Program-made: the position numbers and the translations under genes
The notes under the pieces: model-generated
Database searches by the model: none
Seen by the model: only the letters and a program-made list of their open reading frames with translations
Told to the model about the DNA's origin: nothing
Assembly: GCA_010093485.1 (NCBI GenBank)
Contig: MU001501.1
Location: 1,753,052 to 1,817,051 of the forward strand
DNA from: Karstenula rhodostoma CBS 690.94
Lineage: Eukaryota; Ascomycota; Dothideomycetes; Pleosporales; Didymosphaeriaceae
Direction: 5' to 3'
DNA: 64,000 nucleotides
Part shown: positions 28,724 to 63,816 of the stretch, in pieces
Numbering within the stretch: the stretch's first letter is position 1
How the letters are laid out: the number at the start of each line of letters is the position of its first letter

Positions 28724-29372
28724 CTAAACCTGCCTGTCCTTTCCATTGTTGCCCAAGTCCGTTCGCTTGGGTCTCGGTTCATCGTTGCTTTCACCGGGCT
28801 CGTGCTCACCTGCGTCGTAGCCATCAAATTCGTCTTTGAGGTTCCTCTTCCTCTTCAACTGCCTCTTAAACCTGGGGTAGGCACTCTGCTCAATTAACTC
28901 GCGGACACGCTCTTCAGCGGTGTCAGTTGACAGATTTGCGACGCCCAAACGCACGGCCATGCTATCGCCCAGCTGGATGTGTTGGCGTAAGAGGTCCCGA
29001 TGCGCTGCTTCTGTTTCGGATCAGCTGTTTCGCTCGCACGTGTTTTGGGATCCTCCCGTGCTCACCTCGGAGCGCATCGAATGCGCCCTTCAATCCTTCG
29101 ACCTCACGAGCCTCGGAGCCTAGTTCGCCTACAAAGTACGCCTGCGCATTGCCAAGGACATGATGGACAAGAGTGAACAGCCTCGTGCGAATTGTGAAGG
29201 GGCATTCGTCCTTGGGAATTTTCGTCCAGAGCTTCGGATCCTCCCCTGTAGTGACCGAGACGAGCGCCTTTGCCGCTTGCACGGTCTCGGCCATGTTCTC
29301 AGGTACGAAAGTCAGACATGCTTTGGCCATATCAGCAAACTTCCATCGCAATTCCTCTTCGTAGGTGAGCAT
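28724..29372 (-). CDS. A1: small basic-tailed partner of B1 (paralog of A2)
   Basis: Two exons, 29372-29066 and 29010-28724 (55-bp intron, phase 1), 197 aa. The start was chosen at MLTYEEELRW because the paralog A2 (62605-63542) starts MLTLSYQDEILW at the same aligned place. Both then run through [AK]-K-x-A-L-x-F/H-x-P, a ST-TGE motif, a LF-L-HHV-G block, and an E-x-[RE]-x(3-4)-GL-[KT]-AF-[DQ]-[AN]-L block ending exactly at the intron. The C-terminus is strongly basic (KRQLKRKRN, RPKR), probably nuclear. Divergent from B1, 485 bp apart. No known domain recognised; function unknown. Confidence 0.72.
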
Positions 29373-29857
29373 CTTGACGAAAAGTCCACCGAGCTGTGTT
29401 GGGGAAGACCGGGTGATGAGGAGGAGGGCGGACTCTAATATGGCCCCGATGAAACTGAAGAGGAGACCACATGGTGGCAAGGTCATTCCCCGCGTGCTCA
29501 CCCCAAACTGCGGAAAGTATTCAGCAAACCCATGGGCACGAGACTCCTCTTCACATTCGAAGGTCATGATCCACATCGGCAACGCTGCGGGACCTCCTGA
29601 AAACAAGTACGCAAATATCCGAAACCCCACCTGATGAGGATGCTAAGCGGCGATGGAGACTGGCAGGACGCGGAAGCTTCTCGCTTCAAGCAAATCCGCA
29701 GTCAGTCGATGCCCCTGACGAAGTCACACTGCGGGCAAACATCAACACCGGTGACTTCCTGCGCAGCTCGTCGTCCTTTCAAAGCGCGGTTCGGGCACTG
29801 CTCGACTTTGAACACAACCCTCACTCCGTACTTTACCATCACCATCAGCGAACAGAC
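29373..29857. other. A1/B1 divergent intergenic region with possible B1 5' exon
   Basis: The B1 frame stays open upstream from 29858 to about 29585 without an ATG and reads like protein (e.g. PDEVTLRANINTGDFLRSSS). The paralog B2 has about 23 more residues at its N-terminus than B1 from 29858. An upstream exon or a non-ATG start is therefore possible. Confidence 0.5.
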
Positions 29858-31909
29858 ATGGACAGAACCAAGGATCGACCTCTGCAAAACAACCCCAAAC
29901 CCTACAGGGGCGAAATTCGTTGGCCAACCGGCCCAGCCAGCTGCATAGGGAACCTTTTCGAGACACATATCCTAGACTCCCTGGAGAAACAGTGCAAGCC
30001 TCCTTCCAACTATCGCCTCATTCCAAGTAAGTCAAAAAAGCCATCTACGCAAAAGTCTTGCTCAATTTTTCCAGGTTTCGACTTTGAGGACTGCGACGTC
30101 TTCGCTTTTGACATTAGTCAGTGCGATCCCAAAGATCCGTTTCCAGATGTACCGCTCTCCGACTTTCGGAGGCTGGCATGGGCGTGGCGTCACATCAACG
30201 ATGACATCATGGGGGTGTTGTGCGACATCAAGAGCGGCCCTCCTCAATTCCATTGGCTCAAGGCCTCTGCACAGGTGTACTTCTCTCGCATAAACGGATC
30301 CGATCCAGACACCATCTACGCGATCCCGCGCCTCTACATCCAGAGGCTACGCGACGCTAGATGGCAACGCAGGAGGATGTACATACGGTCAGATTTTCTG
30401 ATGCACTTCCCAGCTCTTGCGCCGTTCGCCCTGGCCGAGGGAGATCTGGCCCAGTTATTCACACAACTGTTGTCAGACGACCCTGGCCCCCCACCCGGCA
30501 CACCCGTGCCCTCTTCGAGCGTGATACTAGCAAGACCGCAAGTCTGGGCCGACACGGTCCGAGTACCTATCAGAAAGCTGTTCAACATGAGAAGCCCGAA
30601 ACAAAAAGCCGCATTCCAAGCTTTTCAGAAGCTCCACGAATCGCTTTTTCCTCACCCGAGTCTACGCCCGCACTCCAACCACACGATGGAGATTCATCGC
30701 AGTCCCACGCAACCTCTCGGAGGCGACTACGTCGTCAGGTTTGATGGCTTTCAGATCATCGTTCAGGATAAGAATACCTCCCAATCGCAAGATTGGTTTC
30801 GACCTACCTCTTATTTCCACGCTCTCTTCCAGCACCGTCTTGAAGGCAATCCTCTGGACAACGCGCTCTTCGTATCCCATGCACCCCAGGCTGGCAAGTT
30901 GTTCCCGTACGAGAACTTGGCAGGGGAACTCAAACAGCACCTCGTCGATACGGCAATGGTTACGCACGATCGAATGGGCAACCTCTTAGGTAACATTGTC
31001 AACGAGGACGTTGAACTTGAACCAATGATAGGGAACGAACGCGAGGAGTTGGAGGACCTGCGCAATGCAAGGTCCGAACTCAAAGAGTACCAAACATTTT
31101 GGAAGCTCGCCAATCACCTAGCGATGCACCACTACGACGTCGCCAACACAGCTTCCAAGTTCGATCTCGTTTTTGTGTACCTGAATTGGGACCAGAACCA
31201 TCCCGATGGAGACATGTTTGTCGTGTTGCACGACTGGACCGCCGAAGAGAGGCTTGTCTTTGAGAGGAGCGGCCGCCTCCCCGTTGACCTGGTGCGCTTA
31301 GCAAGAGAACGAAGACGAGGAATAATATTGCGACACTACTGCCGTGGATATCGCCAACACGCATCCCATGAATGCCATCTGCCCATGGAGCAGAGGGAGG
31401 CGGAATTGCCCGTGACCGCACAGAGGTTCATGCTCGTAGGCGCCCCTGACAAGAACGTGCGGGCACGTCTGCCTCCCAACCTCTTGCTCCTGCCATCTCA
31501 ATTCATAAACTTTCCCGAGTTGGCAAAGAAGGAATGGGCAAGGTCGGCGGTGAGGGTCAACGCAGAGACACTGCCGACTCACACGCTTTGTTTGCTCGTC
31601 GGTCATACGCAACCCACAGAAAGCTTCAAGACGGACCAGATGCTGGAACAAGGCCTGCGACTTGCTAACTTTTGGCTCCCACCCGAGCATGTCCTCTCGA
31701 ATCTCTCCCGTATCTTGAAGGGTGCAGGGCAGGTTGTGCACCCGGAAGTTCCAGAGTCATCGCTCGATACCTTTGATGCAGCTGAATACTTGGTTGGTGC
31801 AGATGCCGTCCTGAGGGCCAGCCTTGACCACGGCACGATGCGAGACGGCGATGACACGGAACACCGTACGACTGGGTTCTACAACAAGATACGTAAGGGA
31901 AACAGATGA
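29858..31909 (+). CDS. B1: large nuclease-like protein, paralog of B2 and B3
   Basis: Two exons, 29858-30026 and 30075-31909 (48-bp intron, phase 1), 667 aa. The spliced join gives RLIPSFDFEDCDVFAFDI, matching RVIPSFDFADGDGAIVDI of B2 at an intron of identical position and phase. Motifs shared with B2 and B3 are DIKSG near residue 107 and GGDYVVRFDGFQIIVQDK with D274, Q287 and K289 (D-x12-Q-x-K), arranged like PD-(D/E)xK nuclease cores. The C-terminal VLRA-LDHG-R-RTTG block is shared with B2. The start is uncertain, since open frame continues upstream. No signal peptide. DNA cleavage is a hypothesis only. Confidence 0.75.
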   Translation: MDRTKDRPLQNNPKPYRGEIRWPTGPASCIGNLFETHILDSLEKQCKPPSNYRLIPSKSKKPSTQKSCSIFPGFDFEDCDVFAFDISQCDPKDPFPDVPLSDFRRLAWAWRHINDDIMGVLCDIKSGPPQFHWLKASAQVYFSRINGSDPDTIYAIPRLYIQRLRDARWQRRRMYIRSDFLMHFPALAPFALAEGDLAQLFTQLLSDDPGPPPGTPVPSSSVILARPQVWADTVRVPIRKLFNMRSPKQKAAFQAFQKLHESLFPHPSLRPHSNHTMEIHRSPTQPLGGDYVVRFDGFQIIVQDKNTSQSQDWFRPTSYFHALFQHRLEGNPLDNALFVSHAPQAGKLFPYENLAGELKQHLVDTAMVTHDRMGNLLGNIVNEDVELEPMIGNEREELEDLRNARSELKEYQTFWKLANHLAMHHYDVANTASKFDLVFVYLNWDQNHPDGDMFVVLHDWTAEERLVFERSGRLPVDLVRLARERRRGIILRHYCRGYRQHASHECHLPMEQREAELPVTAQRFMLVGAPDKNVRARLPPNLLLLPSQFINFPELAKKEWARSAVRVNAETLPTHTLCLLVGHTQPTESFKTDQMLEQGLRLANFWLPPEHVLSNLSRILKGAGQVVHPEVPESSLDTFDAAEYLVGADAVLRASLDHGTMRDGDDTEHRTTGFYNKIRKGNR

Positions 31910-32180: not shown

Positions 32181-34010
32181 TCACATACTCAAATGCTGCG
32201 CCACGCCCCAGGCACCGATGCAGACAAAAGTTGCGCGAGCAGCCATTCCAAGCCACGTTTGCTGCCCAGCAAACCCCTCCATGGCCTCGCCCGGCTCCTC
32301 AATCACGACCTCGCCCAGCTCCTCGATAATGGCCTCATCTGGCTCCCCAATCATGGCCTCGCCCGGCTCCTCGATAATGGCCTCATCTAGCTCCCCAATC
32401 ATGGCCCCATCCAGCTCCTCAATCACGACCTCGCCCAGCTCCTCGATAATGGCCTCATCTGGCTCCCCAATCATGGCCTCGCCCGGCTCCTCGATAATGG
32501 CCTCATCTAGCTCCCCAATCATGGCCCCATCCAGCTCCTCAATCACGACCTCGCCCAGCTCCTCGATAATGGCCTCATCTGGCTCCCCAATCATGGCCTC
32601 GCCCGGCTCCTCGATAATGGCCTCATCTAGCTCCCCAACCATGGCCTCGCCCGACTCCTCAATCACAACCTCGCCCGGCTCAGCAATCGCGCCTGTTCCA
32701 GGCACGTACATTTCCTCCAGCATTTCCTGGATCATCTCTTCACCTGATGCCTCGGTTGCCTCTTTAACTAGTACTGCGCGTGTGCCTTCGGCTGACTTCT
32801 TGACTGCGTCCATGACTGTAGGGTCAAGGACTAGCGCAGGGGTCGGGTTCGATGCCAGAACTGCGTCCATGACCGACGCTGGTGCAGGGACAGGGGTTGG
32901 CACCAGGGTTGGTGTCGATACCACGACTGATGCCGATGCGGCGGTTGAAGGTTCTGCCACAACCGATGCTGGTACGGTGATCGAAGGTTCCGCCGCAACT
33001 GATGCTGGTTCCTCGGCATTGTCCTTCACATGGCCTTCGCCGCCCTCGGCTTCGTCTGGTCCTTGTTCTTGGTCTCCGTCTCCGTCACTATCCGCCTCGA
33101 GGACATAGCTCACGTTCTCTGTTCGCTCTCGCAGGGAGCGTCTCGTCGGGTTGTCTCCTCCGGTAGCGGTGGGTGGCCAATGCGAGATGACGCGGACGGG
33201 GCTCCTGCCCTCGGAGGGTTGGTATTCACTGGCGCTGTCTTGGTCGCTTGAAGATTTGGTCGTATCCGCGGCGTGTGCATCCGTCACGGCTTCATCGTCA
33301 GCAGCCTTTTCGACGGCAGCGACTGGTTGCAGCTGGCTCTGGACATGTAGGCGCTTCGTAGGTGGTTCCCCGATGGGTTCTCCGTCCTTTGTGATTCGTT
33401 CGAGCTTGCGCTTCAAATCAATAGTGACAAAGGCTGCCTGCTCGCTGGAAGGAGTCCCTCGGACTTTGCGGGCGTTCGCGCGGGTGTTGGTCGCCTCGAG
33501 CCAATCGTCAACGTGCTGGGCAAGTGTGCTCCCGGCTTCGATGCTTTGTGTACGGGGACAGATGCGAAAGTGGTAAGGCTCAAACGCCATAGTCGTGTCT
33601 CCCGTCACGAGCATCGAGTCGCCGGGTGCCAGATCGATTGTGTGCGAAGCGGATATGATGGGAGCGGCAAGGATGGATATAGACCTCTGCTTGCTGTTGT
33701 TGGTGAGCACCAGCAGCTTCGTGGACACATCAAGCGCGAGTGAAAAGTGCTGTTCCCGATCCTTGGACATGTGTAGATGGAAGAGCGACGAGCGGGTGCT
33801 GCCAAACGTCATGCAGGCGCGTCCCCGAAGCTGAATAAGGTCAAAGACGATGACACGTCGACAGCCCACCACGATAGTTTGCTCAGCAGAATCCTTGAGC
33901 GGTTCCGGAAGCAACGAGAGGGACGTCGTCCAGCGCCGGTTACCTCGCCACTCCAGCGTGTCGAGGGCTTGGCTCGAAAGTGGAACGAGCATTGCGAAGA
34001 CTGAACTCAT
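32181..34010 (-). CDS. Tail-anchored protein with FHA-like N-terminus and 10-residue repeats
   Basis: 609 aa from the ATG at 34010 (MSSVFAMLVPLSS); the frame is open further upstream but lacks an ATG. Residues about 50-150 have FHA-like spacing (RACMTFGSTRSS, later LAPGDSML, YHFRICP), though the usual invariant residues are only partly present. Then comes a long acidic, Pro/Ala-rich disordered part with a basic patch (DNPTRRSLRERTE). About 15 repeats of ten residues follow, of type [IM]-[IG]-E-[EP]-[LPD]-[GD]-E-[AV]-[MIV]-I, encoded by a 120-bp tandem repeat. The last 25 residues hold one membrane segment (MAARATFVCIGAWGVAQHL), so it is probably tail-anchored with the bulk facing the cytosol. 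Unknown function. Confidence 0.65.
   Translation of the reverse strand: MSSVFAMLVPLSSQALDTLEWRGNRRWTTSLSLLPEPLKDSAEQTIVVGCRRVIVFDLIQLRGRACMTFGSTRSSLFHLHMSKDREQHFSLALDVSTKLLVLTNNSKQRSISILAAPIISASHTIDLAPGDSMLVTGDTTMAFEPYHFRICPRTQSIEAGSTLAQHVDDWLEATNTRANARKVRGTPSSEQAAFVTIDLKRKLERITKDGEPIGEPPTKRLHVQSQLQPVAAVEKAADDEAVTDAHAADTTKSSSDQDSASEYQPSEGRSPVRVISHWPPTATGGDNPTRRSLRERTENVSYVLEADSDGDGDQEQGPDEAEGGEGHVKDNAEEPASVAAEPSITVPASVVAEPSTAASASVVVSTPTLVPTPVPAPASVMDAVLASNPTPALVLDPTVMDAVKKSAEGTRAVLVKEATEASGEEMIQEMLEEMYVPGTGAIAEPGEVVIEESGEAMVGELDEAIIEEPGEAMIGEPDEAIIEELGEVVIEELDGAMIGELDEAIIEEPGEAMIGEPDEAIIEELGEVVIEELDGAMIGELDEAIIEEPGEAMIGEPDEAIIEELGEVVIEEPGEAMEGFAGQQTWLGMAARATFVCIGAWGVAQHLSM
32298..32657. repeat. 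Three in-frame copies of a 120-bp coding repeat
   Basis: Units start near 32298, 32418 and 32538. The first two are identical to the eye, and the third diverges at its end. Each 120-bp unit consists of four 30-bp sub-repeats, so unit number can change by whole-codon steps without breaking the frame of the tail-anchored protein. Confidence 0.9.
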
Positions 34011-34615
34011 AGCTACAGATTGCAGCTTAGAGTCGAAGACAAAGGGGATAGATAGGTGAACAGGGGAAGAATTGACTTTTGGATCACTAATGTCCACGAG
34101 ATTGGGGACGGAAGCGGGTGATGTGTAGTGGAAGCAACAGCCGACCTCTCTGCAGATTAATATACAGCAGCGGAGCGGTTCAGGTCTCAGACAGGGTAGA
34201 CAGCGATGGAACAGTTCGACTCACACCAAGGCAGTTTAAGCCAATCACCGACGTAGAAACCATTCAAGCTCCCAGACAGCGCACAGCAGGTAACAAACCC
34301 CGGAGGGGCATGGCAAAGACCAAGTGGTGGTGCTGGTGTCTCGCCTTCACTGATGTAGCTTAGAAGTCTAGTGGTGCTGACTGCTCTTGAATTCTTGACA
34401 GCAGGAAGAGAGTCAAGTGGTGAATAAGCACAGTTGTTCATTACAAGTGACTATCGTACAGGCACCTCAGATTGGTTTGCCGTTCGGACCCCCCTCCGAC
34501 ATAAAACATGAATCCCAGCCATCAGCGTGCCAAGTGTTCAGCTCAAAACAATGCCTGGATCGTCCCCTCCCCTTCCAACTTGCAAACCCCATCACGCCCC
34601 GTACAGGCCCTCCGC
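34011..34615. other. Intergenic region upstream of the tail-anchored protein
   Basis: Presumed promoter for the minus-strand gene to the left and 3' end of the next minus-strand gene. No gene is seen. Confidence 0.5.
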
Positions 34616-35884: not shown

Positions 35885-38106
35885 CTATTGACGTCTTCCA
35901 GTGACGTCGTTTGCGGAAAGCCCTTGCAACGGTCTAGAGGTCGTGCCTCTGGCATACGAAGGTATCTTGCTGGGAGGCAGAGCGGCAGGGGGCTTGGAAC
36001 TAGGCTTCGTTGCATTGGTTGCACTTTCGCGAAGGGTCGACGGTGATCTTTGGAGGAGAATGGCAGGATGGCTTGACCGGGCAGCGAGAGGTGGCGCTGC
36101 ACAGTCGGAAACTTGGCGAGAGCATTCTCCCCTCGACGGTACCTGTTCACTTCCCGGCGGGGACTCGGCTCGATGCTGGACCTGCTCGCCGCCAGTCGGT
36201 AGATACACGAGTTCTCCTTTTTTCCCCGTGGCAAACTCACAAACGTTTTGTGCCGAAGACCACGGGTGGTGTAGGTTGACGTGGCTGATGAGAGCTGTCT
36301 TGGGGAGCGTTAGGCTCTTTTCCTGCGTCCAGCTACTCATCGGCAGCAAGACCTTTTCGATGACACGCGTCAACTTTGCACGGTCAGCAGCAGACTTTTG
36401 AGGTTGGCGCGTGGATAATTACCGCATGATCCTTGACGGGTACCAGGATTTGGGGATCGCTACATTGGCTGACATAGGTCCGCAGAGCCGTCCGTCCTGC
36501 ATTGATCATGTCGGAGCCTTCTTCAGCCACTTCTCCCCCGCAAACGTCCACCATGTGGAGCCGGCCCGCGCCGCTGCCGTACATGACGACGCTGACATGC
36601 GATCTGGAGGACGTGTCGTTTTGGGACGTTGCCGCTTTCTTGCGAGCACCGTCAATGTGCCGAAGTACGGCTTCCAGGCCTTGCGCGTCCCCAATCTCGT
36701 ATCTTCCGCAGGGTATCTCCCTCGGACGGCCCTGAAGCAGTTTGACTTTGAATTTAGCGAGGTGCTCGGGTGCCATGGTGGGAACATCCTCCAGCCTATC
36801 GGTGACCTGGCACACTTCAATGTACAGCACCCCGAATTCTTGCAACAGCGCGAGTCCAGCATACTGGGCGATCGTACGTTGACCGTCTCGGCTCCACAGC
36901 AGGGTGCTCGTCTTGCCCGATCCGCTGTATCCGTCCAAGAAGATCAAGCTCTTCCACCCTCTTAGGACGTGCGCCACGAAACCCTTCATTGCCAGGTTGA
37001 TGTCTTCGTTGTCGCATTGCTCGCCGAAAACGTGGTCGAATATCCCATAGGTGAAGCTGTCGCGGGTTCCGTATGCTTCTGCTATGAAGACCATGCCACG
37101 GCTCGCTTTTAGGTAGTGCCGGGTGCGCGAAGCAGCGTCGCTCGGGGAAATCACACGGAGGAAACGTCGTGGGCGATAGTCTAATTTGCTTTTCGCATGG
37201 CGGGTCCACATTGTGGAGAGGGTGCTCGTGAGGCTTGCGCGGCGCTCTAGCAGTTTCGAAACCTGCAGAGCTTGGTGCGCAACCACCTGGCCGTCTGCTG
37301 TTCTCTGTCCTTCCAAATGATGGACCTGCCTGCTCTTCGCCTCGACATCGAGAGCCAACAATCTAGCAGTCTCGCCGCCTGCTTCGCATTCATGTTCCAG
37401 AGAGCTTACCCTGTCGCGGAGAGCCGCAAGCTGGAGCTGATGTTCGACCCTGATCGTCTCGATCTCGGTGCGCTTCATCTCAAGTTCACGCTCCAGCGAG
37501 CGTATCCTGTCGGCGTTGTCTTGGAGCTGCGTTGCAGTGGAATCGTTGGCAAGGCCGGCGATGCCATCTCGTCTCTCCGCGACCTGCTGAGCAGGCTCTC
37601 TCGCGTGTTGCAGCGTTTCGAGGTGCACCGGGCGAGTTGCCTCCGAGGTGAGCTCGCTGCCCGGGGCGTTTCCAAGCGCTGGCATTTGCTATTCGGATGC
37701 ATCGTTTAGCCGAATCCGCACAAACGCCATCGTCGAGGTTCTTACCTTTTGCGGTGTTGCTGTGGAAGGCACGTCCTGGGGCAACTCTGTCGAACGAGCC
37801 CGCGGGGGTCTCCAAAGGCGGAGAATCGACCGGCGTACAGCTAGACTGCAGGGACACCTGTCAAGATCAGCGGGAGGTGGATCCAAGCGGTCGGCGTGCT
37901 GCCTACCAGTGTGCGACAGCCATCGCTAGGAAAGTGAAGGCTGCGGAGAAGATTGTGTAGCGCGTACGCACAGAACGCACGATGCCAACCACTCGATCCG
38001 TCTGGAATTGTCGCTCCGACCAGTCTATGCTGGAGTCGTCGGGGATGAGCTGTCCGAGGTAGAAGGCCAGGGCGCCGGCGACAGCCGCGTCCAGGAGGCG
38101 CCACAT
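35885..38106 (-). CDS. K1: kinesin-like motor protein with N-terminal membrane anchor
   Basis: Four exons: 38106-37907, 37845-37746, 37688-36444, 36394-35885; introns 61, 57 and 49 bp; 684 aa. Two hydrophobic segments lie at about residues 7-21 (LDAAVAGALAFYLGQ) and 50-66 (YTIFSAAFTFLAMAVAH). A coiled coil follows (about 155-250). The motor-like domain then shows the kinesin order: FTYGIFDHVFGEQ, P-loop GYSGSGKT at 353-360, switch I NDTSSRSH at 457-464 (full consensus NxxSSRSH), switch II MVDVCGGE near 480 (consensus DLAGSE, degenerate), an AKLTRVIEKVLL helix (compare 'SKLTRLLQ'), and ALISHVNLH. A Pro/Ser/Lys-rich tail ends the protein. Kinesins hydrolyse ATP on microtubules; whether this one moves is unknown. 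It may tether a membrane to microtubules. Intron 3 uses a CAAAAG acceptor, supported by motif continuity. The 12-nt alternative acceptor at 37857 is also in frame. Confidence 0.8.
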
Positions 38107-38384
38107 GGCCGTCGACGGGGCAAACTTTGCAGAATTATCGCTGCGAAGAGAAGCCGGTGCTGCGTTGCACAGTCCGAGGCAGGGCTATCACCCGGTCGAT
38201 GGATCAAGGGCGACGGAGACGGACGCGAGGGTGGAGGTGGCGGCGATGTCGCGGGCGGAAAGCCTGTGCGAACTTTGCACAGTGCTTCGCAGAACCGCGA
38301 CGGCGCTACAGCCATGTCTCAGACAACCCCTCGCCATAGCAGCGACGTCCTGGCCTCTCCAATCTGCCGCTGTCTTCGCTCATC

Positions 38385-39269
38385 ATGTCCGCGCAGACCG
38401 CGTGCTTCGATGCGCCGCCCAACGCTCCTCCTCGCCCACGGCCGCGCGCAACCGCCGCCCAGTCTCTTCGCCGTCGCGTGCCTACGAAAAACGTGGAACT
38501 GATCAGCGTGAGGTTCGCGGCCTTGATCCGCGCCCTCGTCCTCCTTGCGATCCTCGTCGGATTGCTGCCGCACACCGCGTCCGCGTTGGCCGTCCCAGGT
38601 GCCCACGAGATGTTCGAGATACGAGATGTACTCGCGCAGGCCGCACAGAGAGAGCACACAAGAGGTCTCGTCGAAAACACTGCGCACTTCTCCACAGCAT
38701 CGCAGTGCGCGCAAAATGTTCCCGAGCGCGAGCTGGACTTCGCTCTCGCCTTCGGGGCGCTCCGGCCGACGTTGATGCGATTGCAGCAGCTACCGCAAGC
38801 GTGTGGCGTCCTGGACGCCGCTGCACATCACCTGGAGCGCGCAATGTCGCAGCGGGATAGCTTTCTCGGCCAAGTTCGAGGGCTGGCTTCAAACATGACC
38901 GTCGCAGCGGCTCTATTGGACAGTCAGCTGGAAAGCGTAGGCAAACGGATCGTTAAGAGCAGGAACACGGGGGTGCTGCAAATGGATTCGCGACCGCGCG
39001 GTCTAGAAGAGATCGCGAAGCTCACCCGACGCAAGGAAGCGTTGGAAGGATACAGAGTGGCGTTGACCGTGTGCTTGGCCGTGGTGGAGGAGTATCATCG
39101 GACGTGGAAGCCCTTCCTGGAAGCCTTGGAAGCACTGTCTGATCAGATGGAGACATGGAGAAGGGGTGGGGATGAATGCGATGCAGGTGACGATTTCAAC
39201 GTCATGTACCGGGCCCTGTTCCAGGCGGACGTGGTCCTTGGCGGTCTGTCACTGCTGGGCGGAGGATAG
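38385..39269 (+). CDS. Single-pass membrane protein with long helical domain (TM-coil family)
   Basis: Single exon, 294 aa, divergent from K1 with 278 bp between starts. A basic, Pro-rich N-terminus (about 1-42) is followed by one membrane segment (FAALIRALVLLAILVGLLP, about 44-62) and a mostly helical 220-residue domain. This domain has LRPTLMRLQQLPQACGVLD, a Cys in the middle, RTWKPFLEALEAL and a late Cys (DECDAGDD). The same order (LPS/LRPT, Cys, helices, W-[KE]-x-[LF], Cys) recurs in the genes at 43264, 51442 and, more loosely, 41635. The N-in orientation is suggested by the positive-inside rule. Function unknown. Confidence 0.7.
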   Translation: MSAQTACFDAPPNAPPRPRPRATAAQSLRRRVPTKNVELISVRFAALIRALVLLAILVGLLPHTASALAVPGAHEMFEIRDVLAQAAQREHTRGLVENTAHFSTASQCAQNVPERELDFALAFGALRPTLMRLQQLPQACGVLDAAAHHLERAMSQRDSFLGQVRGLASNMTVAAALLDSQLESVGKRIVKSRNTGVLQMDSRPRGLEEIAKLTRRKEALEGYRVALTVCLAVVEEYHRTWKPFLEALEALSDQMETWRRGGDECDAGDDFNVMYRALFQADVVLGGLSLLGGG

Positions 39270-39525
39270 GTGGCACGGCATGGCGCACGCCGTATGCATA
39301 TTTTGTTAGGCGCCCCTTTTGCTAGGCTCCGAGTACGTGGCTGCGGCAACGGCCGTAGCTGTTCACTAGTGTCAATTGCGTTGCTGGCATGCGTTCGGAC
39401 ATGGGACCTAATGAAGATTCATCGACTCTTATTCAATCTTGTTCCGCGCGGACGACTCCGCTGACTATCACCATGCCTTGAGACGGAACAAACACCGACC
39501 CCAGACCCGACTACATTGTCATCCG

Positions 39526-41141
39526 TTACGTGTTTGATAACCTGCGTGCGTGCTCCAGCGTGCGTTGGTTGTCACCGTCTGAATGGTTGACATTGACGTG
39601 AGCGAGCAATATCTTGCAGGTGCAGTTGTGCGCGCGAACGACATCGGTAATCTGGTTTCCGCTGTGCACCTGGTCATCCTTTCGCTCCCGGCCTTGCAGG
39701 TACGCGTTGATTGCTCTGCGGCTGGGGTCGTCCGCATTCACCGAGGGCCTGTCAGATCCGCACACGTCCACCATCACGAGCGCACCGTCCGCCGCGTGCC
39801 CCCCACGGTCGGCATCGTCTGCCACTTCGAACCTGGCAATGACCATGTGGACATGGCCATCGGCGAACTCGTCCTGGCGCTCCGCGCTCGTCGCTGGTCC
39901 GCGTTGCACCCTGTTCACGTGCTGCAACACTGCTGACAATCCCTCGTCGGACGCTACGACGTAGTGTGCCAAGGTCCTCTTCTTTCCCACGCACGTGAAC
40001 GACCAACGACTTGACCCCTGCACGTATTCGACCCCGGAGCTCGACATGTCGTCGGCAGACATGGTAGGCAGCTCACCTTCGGTGCCAGAAGGACTGAACC
40101 GACTGACGTATATGAGAAGCGATTCCGTTCGCGAATCCTTCAACATGTACGCACCGATGTACGACGCGGCATGCGAGAGGGTCGTGGTCTTCCCCGAGCC
40201 AGGCAATCCATCCGCCGTGATGAAGGTGGTGTTGTGCTGGAGTACGTTGTCGGCTGCGGGCTTCAAGAGCAGAGCCAGCCACCCTCGGCTCTCGTCGAGA
40301 GCGAGGTGGCTTCGAGCGTTGAGCATCCGGCCGACCCATTCGTCTGCGTCTTTCAAAGGTACCTTGCCAACGTACCAAGGCTTCCCACGTGCCTGATCCA
40401 AACGCTCCTCGTCCTCGGGGAGCATCCAGCCGCCTACGTCCTTCGCCAGCGCGCTTGCAGTGCCGGTGGATCGGCCGTGGTCGGTCACGCATAGGATGAC
40501 GTGCACGGCACGCGGCCAGCACACGACCTGGAATGCATGTCTTTTGAAGGACGAGTGTTCCTTCAACCCATCCTCGAGCTTCTTGGACGTGTCGGCGTGA
40601 GCCTGCTTCTCTGCTTCGAGGGCGCTGGTCCGGCGGGCAAGGGCTTGAGCGAGTCGTGCGACCTGGTCTTTTTCGTCTGGACGAGGCTCACTGCTTTCGA
40701 CCACGCTCGCGACGGCCGTTGGCTTGGGTGACTGGGCAGGCGCTCCGTCCTTTTCTTCCGGCGTTCGCGATGCATCTTCCGTGGATGCGGCTGGCGGTTG
40801 CGAGCGGGTGAGCCAAGCGGAGCGGATGAATGCTGCCACGAGAGCCCCGTCGTAGCTGGATAAAACGGTGAGCGCAGCCCACGGTATCGATAGTGCGCCT
40901 CTTGGCGGCCTCACCTGCGCGTGTATTGCCACGCCGTCCACAGAATGAGGAAAGGGAAGAGCGAGATCCAGCTCCACTGCCAATTGTTCCATCGGAGCTC
41001 GTCAAGCGCAACGTCCACCGGGACCTCGTCGTTGTATTGCGCCCGGAAATCTCTCGCCGTGCATCGAGGCAGGACAAGAAGAGGAAGGAGAAGTACCGCC
41101 GCGAGCTCAAAGCAAGCTTCCCATCTGGGATAATCCATCAT
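39526..41141 (-). CDS. K2: second kinesin-like protein with N-terminal membrane anchor
   Basis: Two exons, 41141-40915 and 40855-39526 (59-bp intron), 518 aa. Two hydrophobic segments lie in the first 75 residues (ELAAVLLLPLLVLP; SWISLFPFLILWTAW), parallel to K1. A short coiled coil follows (about 135-180). Motor-like features: P-loop GLPGSGKT at 292-299, a weakened switch I region (FADGHVHMVIARF instead of NxxSSRSH), switch II VMVDVCGSD at about 437-444, and a final LLAHVNVNHSDGDNQRTLEHA that matches the last motor helix region of K1 (ISHVNLHH). More decayed than K1 in switch I, so it may bind nucleotide without normal motility. K1 and K2 are clearly related. Confidence 0.75.
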
Positions 41142-41634: not shown

Positions 41635-42759
41635 TCATGCTACCATGTGTCCGATGTATCCAGCAATGTGCTCTGGAGCGAGGTAGTTCGCGATGAGCTG
41701 CTCCGGGACGTAGTAAACGGGCTCGAGGTATTCGTAAACGGGCTCGAGGTACTCCGGCATGTTGGGAGCTGGCAGACCGAGCTGCTCCAAGGCTACGTAG
41801 AAGGTGCCCAGCGCACCGAATCCAACAAAGGCTGCAGTCGAATACCAAAAAGCGTCCGACCACGGCGTCACCCCAACCTCTGTCGGGGGTGCCGGGGCGT
41901 TGGGTGGAGGCGCGCGGCCCAGCTCTTCGTCTCTCACCTGGCCGAGTTTGTCCAAGACACGTGTTTCCCAACCTGCATTGCACTTGTAGGACTGGAGATC
42001 GTGAGTCTGGAAGTGAAGGCCGAGGGCCCTGAAGTCGGTGAGGTAGGTTTGCCACCGGGAGATGTCTTCTCGCAACGTGACGTCCGCCAACACGGTTGCA
42101 TTCAGCATCATGGCCGCTGGGTAGGCACGCTCGGGATCTTCTTTGTACGCGTTGAGCTTCTGGGTCAGTTCCTCCACCATGGACAGACTGCCACCGTCCC
42201 GTTTCGTGCTGATTTCGGCGCGAGCCTGCTCGGCTAGTGCGAGGACGCGGGCGAGACGCTTCCACGGCAGCAGCTTGGAAGCCAGCCATCGATCCGTGGA
42301 GCAACCGCCCTCGTCGTCTTCCGGGGCATCTTCCAGATTGTTCGTCGACGCGGCGTCCAGCGAAAACAACATGACTTGCAGGGAGATGTCCAGGTCGTCC
42401 AGTGTCTGCGATACAGGAGCCGCGCTTCCGCCAGGCAGTTGCCCTAGTGTCCAAAGCTGCTCGCCGATCTCCTGGTAAGATTGCGCACGCGGTGCCAGAA
42501 CGATCGACGTCGTTCCCTGCCGATCGGAGCTCCACACGAAGAAGATTACCATGGCCAAGACAAGTGTGACGAGCAAGGCGACGAGCCCCAACAAGTTCTT
42601 CCACACCAGCTTCCTGTTTGTATCCAGACGGCGGCCCGGGACCTCGACAATCTCATACGGCTGGAAAAGGCCCAACTTCGTCCAAACAGTCCTCGCCACG
42701 GCACAGAGTAGGTAGAAAGGGGATAAAAGGATTCGTTGAACGTAGCGCCAGAGACCCAT
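41635..42759 (-). CDS. Multi-pass membrane protein of the TM-coil family
   Basis: Single exon, 374 aa. A hydrophobic stretch at about 9-24, a strong membrane segment at about 55-76 (NLLGLVALLVTLVLAMVIFF), a helical region with GGC, EDISRWQTYLTDFRALGL and YKCNAGWE, then a hydrophobic segment near 310-332 (YSTAAFVGFGALGTFYVAL). The tail has a short repeat EYLEPVY-EYLEPVYYVPEQ. The Trp then Cys spacing of the helical part links it loosely to the proteins at 38385, 43264 and 51442. It is encoded downstream of K2 on the same strand. Function unknown. Confidence 0.7.
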   Translation of the reverse strand: MGLWRYVQRILLSPFYLLCAVARTVWTKLGLFQPYEIVEVPGRRLDTNRKLVWKNLLGLVALLVTLVLAMVIFFVWSSDRQGTTSIVLAPRAQSYQEIGEQLWTLGQLPGGSAAPVSQTLDDLDISLQVMLFSLDAASTNNLEDAPEDDEGGCSTDRWLASKLLPWKRLARVLALAEQARAEISTKRDGGSLSMVEELTQKLNAYKEDPERAYPAAMMLNATVLADVTLREDISRWQTYLTDFRALGLHFQTHDLQSYKCNAGWETRVLDKLGQVRDEELGRAPPPNAPAPPTEVGVTPWSDAFWYSTAAFVGFGALGTFYVALEQLGLPAPNMPEYLEPVYEYLEPVYYVPEQLIANYLAPEHIAGYIGHMVA

Positions 42760-43263
42760 GCTGGAAGCTGCTGTGCCTCGGGGTCAGCTGGGCGAAGGGT
42801 AGGGTGGCGTTGGTTCAGTGAGCGTGCTTTTCCTGAGCGGTGGTTTTTGACAACGGAGCAAATGGCCATTCGGTTGCAGGGGAGGCTGCTGCCCTTCGTT
42901 ATAAGCCGGGCTTGGGCGCGGCTCCACGCTTCCACCGTCTCGGTGTTCCCCCCGTGCGAGGGCTCGTGGCGGCTCGTGCGAAGTCTACGAGCAGGAGTCA
43001 TCATCAAACAGGTGTCTTGTGCCAGAAAACTCTCGCAAACCTGCGGTGCAAGCCTGGGAACGGTCCGAGCGATGAGACGTGCCCCCGAAGTGATGCATCA
43101 GACTGAGCATCGGGAGAGGACACAGGGGCAGCCGTGTCCTCTCTGCTCACCGTGCCACGTGACCTTGGGGTGCGTCAACTCGGGGATGGAGGCGCGGCCA
43201 ATCGCTGGCTCGGCTGGCTGACAAGGCAACACTGTGAACGTCGACCGCAGCCGCCCCGACGAC
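42760..43263. other. Divergent promoter region
   Basis: Separates the 374-aa minus-strand gene and the 286-aa plus-strand gene. No gene is seen. Confidence 0.55.
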
Positions 43264-44124
43264 ATGGAGGCAACAAAAGCGCCCAGAACGTCCGGCGCGC
43301 CTCGTCGACGAAACGCTGCCGCAACCCCACAAGCGACCAACTCGCGACCGCCGCGGATGAAGGGGATACTCTTGGAGATGGCCGTCTTGGCCCTCTGGGT
43401 CTACTTCATCGTTTGCACCCGGCCGCAGAGGATCGCGGACGTTTCCACCCCAAAGCTCGACGAGTCCGAAGTTGCGATGCCTGCCCGCCAAATGGACATC
43501 GTCGCGGCAGCACTCGAACCGATCATCGACTACCAAGGCACGGCCAGCGAACGCGTCTCCCAGACATACCAGGCCGCTCTGTCGCTGATCCAAATCCGGA
43601 GCCAGGCGCAGCACATCATCGACACGCGTGTCCTTCCGTCCATGTACCAGTTGCGAGCGGAGCCCGGCAATTGCGAACTGATCGACGCGGTCGACGCCTC
43701 GTTGACCGAAACGAGGGACCTGGCCGAGGGGCTACTCTCCGCTTCACAGGAAGTCATCGCAAAGGTCCGAGTGGCAGAGCGAGCTCTCAACCGAGCCCTC
43801 CGCGATGCGGCCGCCACGGTTTCCGCCGCCCACGACACCAAGAACATCTTCCAGAAGAGGATTGAGAACGGCACGGCACCCGCGGCGGCCCGCCTTCACG
43901 CGAGAACGTTGCAGGAGCACGGTAAGACGCTACACAGGTTCAAACGAGAGATGGGCACGATCTGTGCCGACTGGAAAGAACTCGGAACACTGTTGAACGG
44001 ATACCTCAGAGTGGTTGGCATCTGGAAAGGGGAATCTCCAGAGGAATGCCGTGCGACAGGCGTCGGGATCCTCTTGCGCAAGCTGCGTGTCACGACTTGG
44101 GCAGTCCTCATGCCGTGGGTGTAG
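43264..44124 (+). CDS. Single-pass membrane protein, TM-coil family
   Basis: 286 aa from the ATG at 43264 (MEATKAPRTS). The N-terminus is basic (GAPRRRN, RPPRMKG), then one membrane segment (ILLEMAVLALWVYFIVC, about 35-51). The remaining 230 residues are helical with VLPSMYQLRAEPGNCELID, a long heptad region, ICADWKELGTLL, and a late Cys in SPEECRATG. This is the same sequence of landmarks as in the 294-aa and 399-aa proteins. Divergent from the 374-aa gene. Confidence 0.7.
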   Translation: MEATKAPRTSGAPRRRNAAATPQATNSRPPRMKGILLEMAVLALWVYFIVCTRPQRIADVSTPKLDESEVAMPARQMDIVAAALEPIIDYQGTASERVSQTYQAALSLIQIRSQAQHIIDTRVLPSMYQLRAEPGNCELIDAVDASLTETRDLAEGLLSASQEVIAKVRVAERALNRALRDAAATVSAAHDTKNIFQKRIENGTAPAAARLHARTLQEHGKTLHRFKREMGTICADWKELGTLLNGYLRVVGIWKGESPEECRATGVGILLRKLRVTTWAVLMPWV

Positions 44125-50937: not shown

Positions 50938-51441
50938 TTTGGCGTGTGTGTGGACAAGGTTACCGTAAAGACGTGATGTGGACAAGTGGTCAAAGGTTGC
51001 GAAAACGTGATCGAACGAGCGCAACAGAGGCACAGAGGTCGGAAAGCTCTTGCGCGAAGGGGTGGAGATTTGTTCAAGCGGGGAGAAGCAGAGATCCAAA
51101 GGGGCACTCTTCGCGTTGGCCGGCCGTGTGCATATGTGAGAATGGCAAACAGCACGGTCGGCATGGGAGCGCCCGTGCAGCCACCACGCAGGTGACAAAC
51201 GCAAGGCTTTAGGCCATCCCAGATGACCAGGAGTGGAGTCTGTCTGGGATGAAGAGAGACGCGCCGCGCACGACCTGACAAGCGACGCATGCTCGGCGTT
51301 GGCTGTGAAACGGATCCGATTCACCCACGCCTTTGCTTTTTCAGATCCCCCGCAGCCGGGTGGGGAGGACGTCCAGCTCACGCACGCTGTTTCCGGACCG
51401 CACCGAATTCCTCGCGGTTTTTTTTCTTTCTTTCTCTAGCC
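50938..51441. other. Divergent promoter region
   Basis: Lies between the 165-aa (-) and 399-aa (+) genes. A pyrimidine tract (TTTTTTTTCTTTCTTTCTCTAG) ends six bases before the start codon of the 399-aa gene, as is common in fungal promoters. Confidence 0.6.
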
Positions 51442-52641
51442 ATGGCCTCGCGACCGCGGTCGAATTTCCTCACACCGACGGAGAGGGCGAAGTTGGAAGC
51501 CAGGGAGAGATCCGCCCGGAGGAGAAATCGCACGGAAGGCGAGACGCGAAGCCGAGCTCCCACGGGCGATCCAGACCCGCAAGCCCCGACCGCAAGGGAA
51601 GATGAGTCTCGCTTCAGCCTCAAGAAGCTCTCCAGCAGAGGCCTACCTTTTGCTACCCTGTCCGCCAACCGCCCGATTCCCGTCGATGGCACAGCTGCCC
51701 CAAACCGGACATGGTTGGAGCAGATGCGCAGGATCACAGAGCATCCAGTTCGATACTTGGTCGCAACCATCTGCATTGCGATCATCTTTCTGCGATGCTC
51801 ACCGCATAGTCCGTCCCTCCCTGCACGATGGGTCGATGAGAGGCATGAGCTTTACAACATCTCAAGCCTCACCAAAGATATCAACCTCGCGGAGATGGAG
51901 GATGATGTCGCGACGCCAACACGATCCTTCTACTCGAGTCTAGATGCGGCTTCTGGAGTGGAAAAGCACGTTGCAAACTACGTGTACGCACGTCTCCTCC
52001 CCTCCGTCGTGATGGCAAGGGAGGAAACAAATGGGTACAGTTACGGCGAACGCTTCGGAGCATACATGGCTTCACACGTAGACCCCGCGACTGGGCTCGG
52101 TGGCTTTGCATCGCAGGTCGCCCTCTTCTTCGCAGACAGGGCGAAGCATCGCCGTTGCGATCGCTACCGGGCGCTGGTCGAAGCTCACGGCGCAACGTCA
52201 ACGCGAATCAAACAGACGATCGAGCACCTGGACGGCGCTTTGCAACTTGTCGCCACCGGGCAGGCGCGTATCGGCGCTGCCGTGGCGAAGTTGGAGGTAC
52301 AGCGCATCTCGCTGGAGCGCGATGTGAGGAGGGACCTGAGCGCAACCCCATCGCGGCTCACCGCGGCCGATGACATCAAGCATCTCGAAGCGCAGGCCAA
52401 CGTACACCGTAGGCAAAAGGAAGCCATGGCTACCGCTGAAGAGGTCGTCAGGCGGCAGCGGGCCAAGTGGGAAGAGCTCCGGAAGAAGGTGGAGTATTCG
52501 GGCAACAGTGTAAGCGGGTGGTTGCAGGGTGGTTGTGAGCGACTTCCGGGGCATATCGGGTTCAAGGCTTTTGAGCATCAACTGTGCGCGGATCTGGGCA
52601 AAGTTTTCAGCGGACTGTCGAACCAAAAAGCATGTGTTTGA
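51442..52641 (+). CDS. Single-pass membrane protein, largest TM-coil family member
   Basis: 399 aa from the ATG at 51442 (MASRPRSNFLTPTERAKLEA). A long, basic, disordered N-terminus (about 1-95; RERSARRRNR) precedes one membrane segment (PVRYLVATICIAIIFLRC, about 102-119). The rest is helical with YARLLPSVVMAREE, a Cys in KHRRCDRYRALVEAHG, a coiled-coil segment (about 280-350), RAKWEELRKKV and two late Cys. Shares the landmark order of the 294-aa and 286-aa proteins. The frame is open upstream of the ATG without another ATG. Confidence 0.72.
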   Translation: MASRPRSNFLTPTERAKLEARERSARRRNRTEGETRSRAPTGDPDPQAPTAREDESRFSLKKLSSRGLPFATLSANRPIPVDGTAAPNRTWLEQMRRITEHPVRYLVATICIAIIFLRCSPHSPSLPARWVDERHELYNISSLTKDINLAEMEDDVATPTRSFYSSLDAASGVEKHVANYVYARLLPSVVMAREETNGYSYGERFGAYMASHVDPATGLGGFASQVALFFADRAKHRRCDRYRALVEAHGATSTRIKQTIEHLDGALQLVATGQARIGAAVAKLEVQRISLERDVRRDLSATPSRLTAADDIKHLEAQANVHRRQKEAMATAEEVVRRQRAKWEELRKKVEYSGNSVSGWLQGGCERLPGHIGFKAFEHQLCADLGKVFSGLSNQKACV

Positions 52642-60168: not shown

Positions 60169-62378
60169 CTAGTTTTCCCCATCCTCATTCCAATCAGCCG
60201 GCTCTTCTTCTTCGTCCTCCTTGTCAGGCACAGCGGGTCCAGCGTTGCGTACTGCCCGCCGCCCCCTCTGCCCTGCACCGCGTGGCGACCGCTCTTTTGG
60301 GTTGGTCTTAGCGCCGGCACGCCTTGCGGCTTCCGCGGCCAAAAGCCCCGTCGTGCGTTTGATGATGCCATCGCTTTGGCGTACCATTCCATGGTCCAAA
60401 GGCGCACGAAGGACGCTGCGAACCTCTACCAGGTAGTCATCGAGGTCGAAAGAAGGGCTGGTGCTGTTGGGCGCGGCCTCGGGGTGGATAAGATGCACGC
60501 GCGCATCGGGCCTGTCGCTACGGAGCATGTCCATGAGATGCTGCATGGTACGCTCAGGGGTGAACCAGAAGTCGAACAGGTGCACTCCGTCCTTGGTCAA
60601 CTTGGGCCAACGCTCGCTCTTCTGGGTGTTGGAGAGTTTCATGCTCAGGGAAAACAGGGTAGGTTCGTCGCGGCTATCCGTCTCGTCCCACTCCTTGTGA
60701 ACCGCATCTGGGAAGTCGATGCATTCAGAGGGCAGGAACATGAGATTGGATGTCATTGAGGCAGACGTGGACATGGCGCAGTCCGGAGCGCCTACGAGGA
60801 TGAACGCCTGGCGGGTAAGAGGCATCTCCGCGCCTCGGGACGCCAGGGGGATGTGTGACATGTGTAGCCTGCGGTTGCGGAACTCCCGACAGGCAAAACG
60901 TAAGAGAAGCCCGGGTCCTTGGACTCTTGAGATTTCGACAGGTGCCCTTCGATGCACCCGGAAAACCGCCTTCTCCACCTCGGTCCAAGCGTGACGAACT
61001 ACGAGGACGTCGCCGGAGATGTGCGTCTGGTCGAAGTTGAGGTAGATGCACGCCACGGAAAAATTCGATTCGTGGCCATTGACAAAGTCGTAGAAACTGA
61101 TTGCCAAGCGATGCGCCATCCTCCTGAAAGTCTGGTGCTCCCCGCGTCGCGTGGTCTCGTCGAGCGCAGGTTCGTCATCGTCGACGCCGTCCACGGCAGG
61201 GTAGGAAAGGTCTTGCGCCATGAGTTCTCGATGCGCCTGCTTGGCATGCTGTCTGATGAACGCTTCCAGCTCGGCAGCATCGTCGCTGTATGAGAACGTG
61301 TGGCGCTTGGACGTATCGTGACCCGTCACGACGAGCTCCGCGTCGTTGGTATTCTTCTTGCCCGAGTGCCGGTGCCAGAATAGGAAGTGGAAAAAGGCCG
61401 GAGGCTTGTACCAACTCGACTGGAACTGGGAATCCACCTTGTGCTGGATTATGAATCGCGCTTTGCCCAGGAAGATGGCAAAATCACCCCCTAGCGGCTG
61501 TGTAGGCCCCCGGTGGAGCTCCATGCGAGTGTTGCTCGACGCTTCTATCCACTGAAATAGCTGCCACACGGCCAGGAACGATGTTTCGTGATGGCCCATT
61601 CGGAACCTGAAGAGCCGCGCCAGAGGGACCTGCTTGCAATCCTGCCACACGTCGGGGTCGTCCCCTAGGACCGCAGCATTGGCACCCGCCACACTTTCCC
61701 CCATGATTCGTGCGATCAGCTTCGCGAACTCTTCCTTGTAAACGACGTATGGAGCCAAGCCAGGGTTGGATGTCAAGGTGTCCGGGTGACGCTCTAACCT
61801 CCAGCGCCCCCACCTCATGTTTTCGAGAGCTTCGACGCGATCTCGCGGTATCGCAACGATGCGATCGGGTGGCAGGCATTGGAGCCGGGTCAGGAAGACA
61901 TCTCCCATCGCTTTGTGCCACTCCCTTTTGGGCCAACCCGTCTTTATGTCGATCATGAGAGCTTGCAGGTGGTTTCGGTGGCGATGCGCCCACGCCAAGC
62001 GTCGGAAGCTGGTCAATGGCGCATCGTGCGGAAATGGTTCCTTCACGCCGCGCTGCTTGATGTCGACGATGGCGCCGTCGCCGTCTGCAAAGTCGAATGC
62101 TGTCGATGGCGCGCGTCAGTGTCGAGCAGGAAACACGGTGATCGCAACTCACACGGTATGACGCGATAATCGGTCACTTTGCAGGCATTTTCCACGTCCT
62201 GCAGCACATCGGTCTCCGCTCCACGACCAATGTTAGCCTGGATACCAGGGAGTTTGAGGGGGCCCCTCGTTAGCTGTTTCGCGTTTCTCACTTTACCGTC
62301 AACCATTTGCAATTCACAAATCAGAGCGTTCCAACAATGGTGCAAAAATGGCTTGAAGACTCTGACGACTACTGCCAT
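60169..62378 (-). CDS. B2: large nuclease-like protein, paralog of B1
   Basis: Two exons, 62378-62153 and 62099-60169 (53-bp intron, phase 1, same place as in B1), 718 aa. Starts MAVVVRVFKPFLHHCWN. Motifs: DIKTG near residue 126, RVHR-like basic turns, ELHRGPTQPLGGDFAIFLGK with D281, Q294 and K296 (D-x12-Q-x-K), VACIYLNFDQTH, NLMFLPSECIDFP, and LDHGMVRQSD-RTTG. Long stretches align with B1 (ELHRGPTQPLGGDF against EIHRSPTQPLGGDY). The C-terminal tail (about 60 residues) is charged and disordered, absent in B1. Downstream of A2 on the same strand (226 bp). Confidence 0.8.
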
Positions 62379-62604: not shown

Positions 62605-63542
62605 TCACTTGTGTTTGCGGACCCTCTTCCGCCCTGATGACGAATCGAATGTGGATGCCTCGTTCCGATCCTCGCTCAGGTCCTCACCCGGCTTACGCTT
62701 CTTTGGGGTATCTGGCTGGCGGTCTACGTCCGCCTTCCACTTCCACGCTGACGGAGTCGCAGGAGCCATGCCTCGCGAAACCTTCCATAGCTTGAGGGCA
62801 AGTTTGGGCACGAGTTCGCTCTTGCTGAGCCACGCTCCCTTTCTCCGCAGAGGCACGGCGTACTCCACGAAACACTTGCGTTTGACGTCCGTTTCGTCGA
62901 GCTCGTTCAGTTCGGCTGCAATCCTACTGATCTCCATGGTGGCGGCCTCGTCAAGCAAATCCGCATCCTCGTCAACGGGCACCCCCTTGTCGTCCTCGGC
63001 GCTCGTATGCGGTGGCGACAACGACATGCTTCCTAAACGGATCCTCGTCTCCCGCTCGGAACACGGGTGCTGGAACGATGCCGCGTCGACGGCCAAGGTA
63101 CTCGTCTCTTGACCCTCGTCCAGCTCAGATAGGGCTGCGTCGATGTCGTCGGCAAGCTCGAGTTGTACTTCGAGCAACGCCTTGTGGACAGCGCCTGGTT
63201 TCAAGTGAGCACTTTTTCCGGCGATGAATGTATCATGGACCTACCGCTGAGATTCTGGAACGCGGTGAGTAAGCCTGGGATCCTTTGAGCTTCTCGCCGC
63301 AGTTCGCCACGCATGGTCCCGGCCAGGCCGAATACGTGGTGGGCAAGGTAGAAAAGCTTGACGTGGCGACTGGAAGCGTCGTCGTTCGATGCAGGCCATT
63401 GCTCGCAACTCTCACCCGTGGAGACGCGCAGGAGCTCGGCCGCCAGGATCCTGGGTGGACCGTCCGGCAAGTGGAGCAGAGCCGTCTTGGCTATCAATCC
63501 GTTCTGCCAGAGAATCTCATCTTGGTAGGACAAGGTCAGCAT
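62605..63542 (-). CDS. A2: partner of B2, paralog of A1
   Basis: Two exons, 63542-63245 and 63194-62605 (50-bp intron, phase 1, same aligned position as in A1), 295 aa. N-terminal domain as in A1: MLTLSYQDEILW, STGESCEQW, LFYLAHHVFGLAG, AQRIPGLLTAFQNL. The second exon is longer than in A1, with an acidic middle and two basic C-terminal tracts (PKKRKPGED, GRKRVRKHK) that look like nuclear signals. Co-oriented with B2, so shared regulation is possible. No known domain recognised. Confidence 0.75.
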
Positions 63543-63816
63543 GGTGCGCGATAGGTGCAGAGTTGAATGGGGGTTGTGAAGTTGAGATTTTGGTGGTGTG
63601 AAGTGGACCTCCGGGCAAAATTGTCCTCTTTCAGAGATCGGATGGCTTTGACGGGCCTACGCTTTACATTGGTGGGGTCGAATGTTCTCCCTGCTTCTCC
63701 AGCTTGAGTGCCGCAGTCACTGTCGCGGGTCCGTGACCAGACTCGGAGCTTTCGCAGTATTTGTCGAGCAAAGCATCTCTTGGTGCCAGTTTGCCGATCA
63801 ACGCTTGCTAACCGAG
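63543..63816. other. Divergent promoter region at right edge
   Basis: Between the start of A2 and a gene that begins near the right end. Nothing further is seen. Confidence 0.5.

Follow-up and report, generated by a model that had tools for sequence, protein, structure and literature searches.

Two divergent paralogous kinesin-like genes with predicted N-terminal membrane anchors in Karstenula rhodostoma CBS 690.94

A window of 64 000 nucleotides from the ascomycete Karstenula rhodostoma CBS 690.94 (contig MU001501.1; C10:1753052-1817051 in the 44.3-Mb assembly of 29 contigs that was searched here) carries two minus-strand genes, called K1 and K2, that code for very divergent kinesin-like proteins. 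Their features are listed in table 1, in positions of the window. The span 35885-41141 given for the two genes by a first-pass annotation, made from the sequence alone, runs exactly from the start of K2 to the stop of K1. The splice models of both genes were drawn by hand; the four introns are all GT-AG and have branch-like sites of the CTNA type, judged by eye.

Table 1. Features of the K1 and K2 genes. Positions refer to the window.
Feature	Position	Strand	Basis
K1 gene, 4 exons, 688 amino acids	35885..38106	-	hand splice model; Pfam Kinesin 44.1 bits
K1 exons	38106-37907, 37857-37746, 37688-36423, 36373-35885	-	predicted splicing
K1 exon 1: hydrophobic residues 4-23 and 51-70, the latter segment continuing into exon 2; phase-2 end	37907..38106	-	hydropathy, codon bias
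K1 exon 2: basic linker behind second hydrophobic segment	37746..37857	-	splice model
K1 exon 3: the greater part of the kinesin motor, preceded by a stalk-like helix (residues 158-268)	36423..37688	-	Pfam, PDB, model, stop-free frame
K1 exon 4: LTRV helix, final strand and helix of the motor domain, Ser/Pro-rich tail (by eye)	35885..36373	-	splice model, alignment
K1 P-loop GYSGSGKT, residues 357-364	36909..36932	-	motif reading
K1 switch I NDTSSRSH, residues 461-468	36597..36620	-	motif reading
K1 switch II VDVCGGE (D, G, E retained), residues 484-490	36531..36551	-	motif reading
K2 gene, 2 exons, 518 amino acids, K1 paralogue	39526..41141	-	hand splice model, BLASTP
K2 exon 1: hydrophobic segments (residues 9-28 and 54-73), phase-2 end as in K1 exon 1	40915..41141	-	hydropathy
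K2 exon 2: degenerate kinesin motor behind a short charged helix	39526..40855	-	BLASTP, alignment to K1
K2 P-loop GLPGSGKT, residues 292-299	40186..40209	-	motif reading
K2 switch II VDVCGSD (D in place of E), residues 438-444	39751..39771	-	motif reading

The predicted introns of K1 are 49, 57 and 49 nucleotides long, with the branch-like sites CTGAT, CTAAA and CTGAC; an alternative acceptor at 37845 would give a protein of 684 amino acids. The third intron has two in-frame acceptors. The choice of 49 nucleotides gives VPVKDHALTRV, which aligns on VPYRDSKLTRIL of ordinary kinesins, and the choice that keeps the lysine leaves an intron of 28 nucleotides. The motif after switch II is most likely ALTRV, as yielded by the 49-nucleotide intron, and the KLTRV read in the first-pass annotation is abandoned. 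Exon 3 has 422 stop-free codons (p ~6e-7 by chance at the local composition), and its synonymous codon bias of 0.027 is within the range of eleven training genes (0.005 to 0.262). Exon 1 has a bias of 0.119, compared with a 95th percentile of 0.071 for the null. On plain codon usage, exons 1 and 3 score highest in the proposed frame, exon 1 being the best of six.

K1 belongs to the kinesin superfamily, as had been read from its P-loop and full switch I. The Pfam model PF00225 (Kinesin) gives 44.1 bits, above its curated cut-off of 29.3. PDB searched by sequence returns kinesins, the best match being the Neurospora kinesin 1goj (E-value 1.2e-7, from the FDxVF strand through the LTR helix), and a profile of nine other kinesins from the same genome scores 51.9 bits. 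The catalytic motifs stand in the kinesin order, P-loop, switch I (NxxSSRSH) and switch II (DxxGxE), as GYSGSGKT, NDTSSRSH and DVCGGE; switch II had been called degenerate, a term that does not hold for a motif with the catalytic D, G and E all retained. The exon-3 motor was modelled with AlphaFold2 from a two-row alignment, and the model is weak (predicted local distance difference test, pLDDT, 48.9; predicted template modelling score, pTM, 0.55). With this low-confidence model, every one of the ten Foldseek matches at an E-value of at most 0.001 is a kinesin, and kinesins fill ranks 1-19 of the best 50, at TM-scores of about 0.4. In a second comparison, with VIA, 48 of the 50 rows listed have titles of kinesin-family motors and two are axoneme assemblies.

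The single intron of K2 has 59 nucleotides and a branch-like CTCAC. Its exon 2 has 443 stop-free codons (p ~3e-7 by chance at the local composition) and a synonymous codon bias of 0.065, within the range of the training genes; the whole of K2 scores highest in the proposed frame on plain codon usage. Judged by sequence, K2 is a paralogue of K1, and hence shares descent with kinesins. BLASTP aligns the two proteins with an E-value of 4e-13 and 28% identity, an all-against-all comparison of the 583 open reading frames (ORFs) of the window joins them at 5e-10, and a K1 model scores K2 at 28.0 bits, reached by none of 3000 shuffles. Letters common to both are found in switch II (VDVCG), in a PTM segment and in AVL(R/Q)H. 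As described in the first-pass annotation, K2 keeps its P-loop and VDVCGSD and has lost switch I: SSRSH is absent, and in the alignment with kinesins QDEFADGH stands at the position of NxxSSRSH. The FDxVF motif is not recognizable in K2. An AAA/RecD-like P-loop protein was also considered for K2; the only Pfam matches of this type, AAA_30 (15.3 bits, cut-off 27) and AAA_19 (12.3 bits, cut-off 25.1), are below their cut-offs, and the reading was dropped because the K2 motor aligns to K1.

Hydropathy was evaluated with the GES, Kyte-Doolittle and Wimley-White octanol scales. Two N-terminal membrane-spanning helices are predicted in K1 and in K2, with mixed support across the scales. On GES, no other part of K1 scores as high as its residues 51-70 and 4-23, and no other part of K2 as high as its residues 54-73 and 9-28. 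The first exons (200 and 227 nucleotides) both close in phase 2, at or just past the second segment. The predicted layout is the same in the two genes: the first 75 residues contain both hydrophobic segments, a phase-2 intron comes next, and a helical linker leads to the motor at the C-terminus. In K1, the second segment is followed by basic residues, RRSILRLWRPPRAR, so by the positive-inside rule the motor would be cytosolic. To our knowledge, and in the literature searched, no standard fungal kinesin has such a layout, the N-termini of the other kinesins of this genome not having been compared.

The residues key to the kinesin ATPase are the D and G of DxxG, the E of the salt bridge, the SSR of switch I and the GKT of the P-loop. 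Because the P-loop, switch I and switch II of K1 retain all of these residues, K1 may hydrolyse ATP. K2 has kept the P-loop and the D and G of switch II, but switch I and the glutamate of switch II are lost; it is therefore likely to bind nucleotide and not to hydrolyse it. The earlier suggestion that these proteins are catalytically weakened suits K2, and not clearly K1. We propose, with a probability of about 0.4, that K1 and K2 are a membrane-embedded pair of very divergent paralogous kinesins, one catalytic and one non-catalytic. Each protein would have its N-terminal anchor in the membrane, followed by the stalk and by a C-terminal motor directed towards the cytosol. Fixed in one membrane by their N-termini, K2 would offer its head as a microtubule foothold and K1 would supply a power stroke or a regulated grip, so that the pair would connect an internal membrane (the endoplasmic reticulum or the nuclear envelope by default) to microtubules. 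Tethering or movement of a membrane along microtubules, as put forward in the first-pass annotation, is plausible. The open frames, the kinesin identity of K1, its kinship with K2 and the motifs are shown, and splicing, anchor and topology are predicted; the pairing or dimerization of K1 and K2, their ATPase activity, motility, microtubule binding and membrane compartment are what we infer. It appears quite unlikely that they constitute a lineage-restricted family of integral-membrane kinesins, working as a heteromeric pair with an N-terminal hairpin in the endoplasmic reticulum or nuclear envelope and with the membrane itself as cargo, with no adaptor.

Several observations weigh against the membrane-embedded pair. 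Against the nine other kinesins alone, K2 scores 7.0 bits, which 1 of 3000 shuffles reaches; no kinesin match is listed for it in Pfam at an E-value of at most 10, the cut-off of PF00225 is not attained, and PDB searched by sequence gives no match at an E-value of at most 1. The structure model of K2 is poor (pLDDT 38.1): its best Foldseek match is a kinesin with an E-value of 0.23, and kinesins stand at ranks 1, 2 and 28 of the best 50, none significant. For K1, the first ten Foldseek matches have TM-scores of 0.36-0.43 and root-mean-square deviations above 10 Å, and the synonymous codon bias of exons 2 (-0.065) and 4 (-0.032) is not above the null. The stalks were evaluated by periodicity against shuffles, which replaced a heptad count that picked motor pieces. 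The signal is modest for K1 residues 158-268 (37 of 5000 shuffles reach it) and weaker for K2 residues 134-177 (238 of 5000) and K1 residues 165-206 (1059 of 5000). In the anchors, the Wimley-White octanol scale puts the first segment of K1, which is marginal and contains an Asp, fifth of the listed windows. Kyte-Doolittle above 1.2 finds both K1 segments but just the first in K2, missing the second, and also flags a K1 motor strand and K2 residues 182-200. The pair of N-terminal segments is clear on GES and includes, on some scales, one weak segment per protein. The earlier interpretation as a whole survives in part: the kinesin identity directly for K1 and by way of K1 for K2, the layout by hydropathy with this weakness.

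Other readings overlap with each other and with the favoured one. K1 and K2 might be divergent soluble kinesins, a somewhat unlikely explanation in which the hydrophobic exons represent either small ORFs of their own or an unspliced leader, and translation starts at the next-exon methionine (K1 at 37685, 583 amino acids; K2 at 40992, 488 amino acids). Exon 1 of K1 can be read as a free ORF of 67 codons, ended by TAG at the donor (TGG TAG). The main frame of K2 continues without a stop as far upstream as 41001 and contains an in-frame ATG, and an antisense frame of K2 exon 1 alone beats the anchor frame on plain codon usage (0.177 against -0.058). The donor of K1 exon 1, GTAGGC, looks weak, and the codon bias of K2 exon 1 (0.046) is below the 95th percentile of the null (0.071), both of which count against the membrane-embedded pair. 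The anchor exons of the two genes also have no detectable similarity beyond that of shuffles, 553 of 1000 reaching the local and 271 of 1000 the global score. However, layout and intron phase are identical in both paralogues, the codon bias of K1 exon 1 is 0.119, and the intronless N-terminal frame of K2 has a bias of -0.107, lower than that of the anchor frame and below the null median.

It is tentatively possible that K1 and K2 are membrane proteins in which neither motor moves, the kinesin domain serving as a nucleotide switch or as a microtubule-binding scaffold. The loss of switch I in K2 is consistent with this, as are the shortened loops of K1, its ALTR in place of KLTR, the short region past switch II and a first strand in which RxRP is not recognizable; yet K1 retains all the residues of the three catalytic motifs despite its great divergence elsewhere. 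The decay of copies of an ordinary kinesin into pseudogenes would account for very long branches (K1 3.92, K2 10) and for the lack of a relative of K1 at an E-value of at most 0.001 among the scored protein-database candidates. It is highly improbable, both frames being intact, with main exons that are hardly expected to be stop-free by chance, and motifs being common to copies of just 28% identity.

Among known motors, K1 resembles kinesin-14 (Kar3/KlpA; represented here by C4:2355968, whose class was assigned by reading) in that the stalk comes first and the motor is C-terminal; the order is that of kinesin-14, and a coiled-coil may precede the motor, to judge by the weak periodicity. The Kar3 structure 1f9t heads the VIA list of K1, tied with other classes. 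By contrast, the conserved kinesin-14 neck (NIRVMCRVRP in the C4 protein) is replaced in K1 by YRPRRFLRVISPS, GYSGSGKT stands for GQTGSGKT, and the predicted hydrophobic anchor of K1 takes the place of a soluble tail. Membership in kinesin-14, suggested by the motor position and by the best genome match, is carried neither by the neck nor by the tree, so we keep it as a resemblance only. The proposed pair also resembles Kar3 with its partners Cik1 or Vik1, in which a non-hydrolysing kinesin-like head stands beside a catalytic one, and such a pair can walk with the inactive head as foothold (PMC4338441). Cik1 and Vik1 are described there as lacking ATP-binding elements, whereas K2 keeps its P-loop, and the passages of PMC4338441 concerned mention no anchor; the pairing of K1 with K2 is itself putative. 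A catalytic/non-catalytic pair in one membrane would, if true, be a natural test of the Kar3 foothold model.

Ordinarily, kinesins are soluble proteins that contact membranes through light chains, adaptors or lipid-binding domains; chitin synthases of the CsmA type have membrane segments. Fungal chitin synthases with a myosin motor-like domain (CsmA; PMC4425547) likewise combine a cytoskeletal motor-like domain and a membrane enzyme in one polypeptide. Their domain is myosin-like, N-terminal and on an enzyme, and they have no kinship with K1 or K2. A kinesin that is a membrane protein would, if confirmed, be the microtubule counterpart of these myosin-chitin synthases. In the titles and abstract openings of the open-licence papers listed by the searches, we recognized no kinesin that begins with a membrane anchor. 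Wickstead and Gull 2010 (PMC2867816) excluded 166 divergent, low-scoring kinesin motor domains outside the known families. K1 and K2 are also divergent and low-scoring, and since so many such kinesins were set aside, relatives of K1 and K2 may sit unnoticed in lists of this kind. The word 'transmembrane' is absent from the main text of that paper and from the text available for a basidiomycete kinesin survey (PMC8950801). In a plant kinesin survey (PMC1434745), 'TM' figures among the additional domains in two legends.

PF00225 has 20 matches in the genome, which represent, by reading, thirteen loci: eleven that resemble ordinary kinesins or fragments of such genes, a divergent kinesin on contig C24, and K1. 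At an E-value of at most 0.1, spliced K1 matches itself, the kinesin-14 on C4, K2 and a kinesin-1 on C3; weaker rows (E-values 0.48-1.36) comprise one kinesin and two other proteins. The C4 kinesin-14 is the best other kinesin (33 bits, versus 17.2 for the C3 kinesin-1). K2 matches K2 and K1 alone, and no third copy of the family was found in the genome with either query. The tree joins K1 and K2 (99/97), on branches long enough for false joins to be possible; its forks are open and assign no kinesin class.

No relative of K1 was found in the protein database at an E-value of at most 0.001 among 7994 scored candidates. As a control, the kinesin-1 of the same genome has matches of 94% to Paraphaeosphaeria sporulosa and 92% to Didymosphaeria variabile, which shows that the database does contain Didymosphaeriaceae and places the fungus in this family (Pleosporales) or near it. 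The candidates in each database search were limited, and the exclusion therefore covers just relatives sharing many 5-residue words. The protein on C24 (C24:442673-443554; L017 712-2493) is a third divergent kinesin-like protein, with GETNSGKT, NEVSSRSN and VDLFGSEE. By eye, it has a charged helix ahead of the motor and no hydrophobic anchor in the open frame, and it has no relative at an E-value of at most 0.001 among 7996 scored candidates. If our proposal is true, orphan regions of fungal genomes can yield new motor architectures alongside the usual kinesin set.

Between K1 and K2 lies an intact, unrelated orphan gene (38385-39266, plus strand), head-to-head with K1 at a distance of about 280 bases. 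Its protein has a hydrophobic N-terminal segment and a helical remainder, judged by eye; it has no Pfam match and no paralogue in the genome at an E-value of at most 0.1 (weak matches start at 0.209). Three other orphan genes, 41638-42753 (minus), 43222-44121 (plus) and 51256-52638 (plus), code for hydrophobic segments and helical bodies, also by eye, and have no Pfam match above cut-off. The first of them is likewise without a genome paralogue at an E-value of at most 0.1. Because the neighbours 38385-39266 and 41638-42753 have no such paralogue, we do not interpret K1 and K2 as part of a gene cluster.

Further out, the orphan frames 29570-31906 (plus) and 60172-62115 (minus) are similar (35% over 616 amino acids, E-value 2e-95), as are 28965-29642 and 63204-63656, both minus (34%, E-value 3e-11); neither pair has a Pfam match at an E-value of at most 0.1. 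These similar frames bracket K1 and K2, an arrangement suggestive of old duplications within the region. The minus-strand frame 32181-34220 is long and contains a repeated acidic stretch with units such as EELDGAMIGELDEAIIEEPGEAMIGEPDEAIIEELGEVVI.

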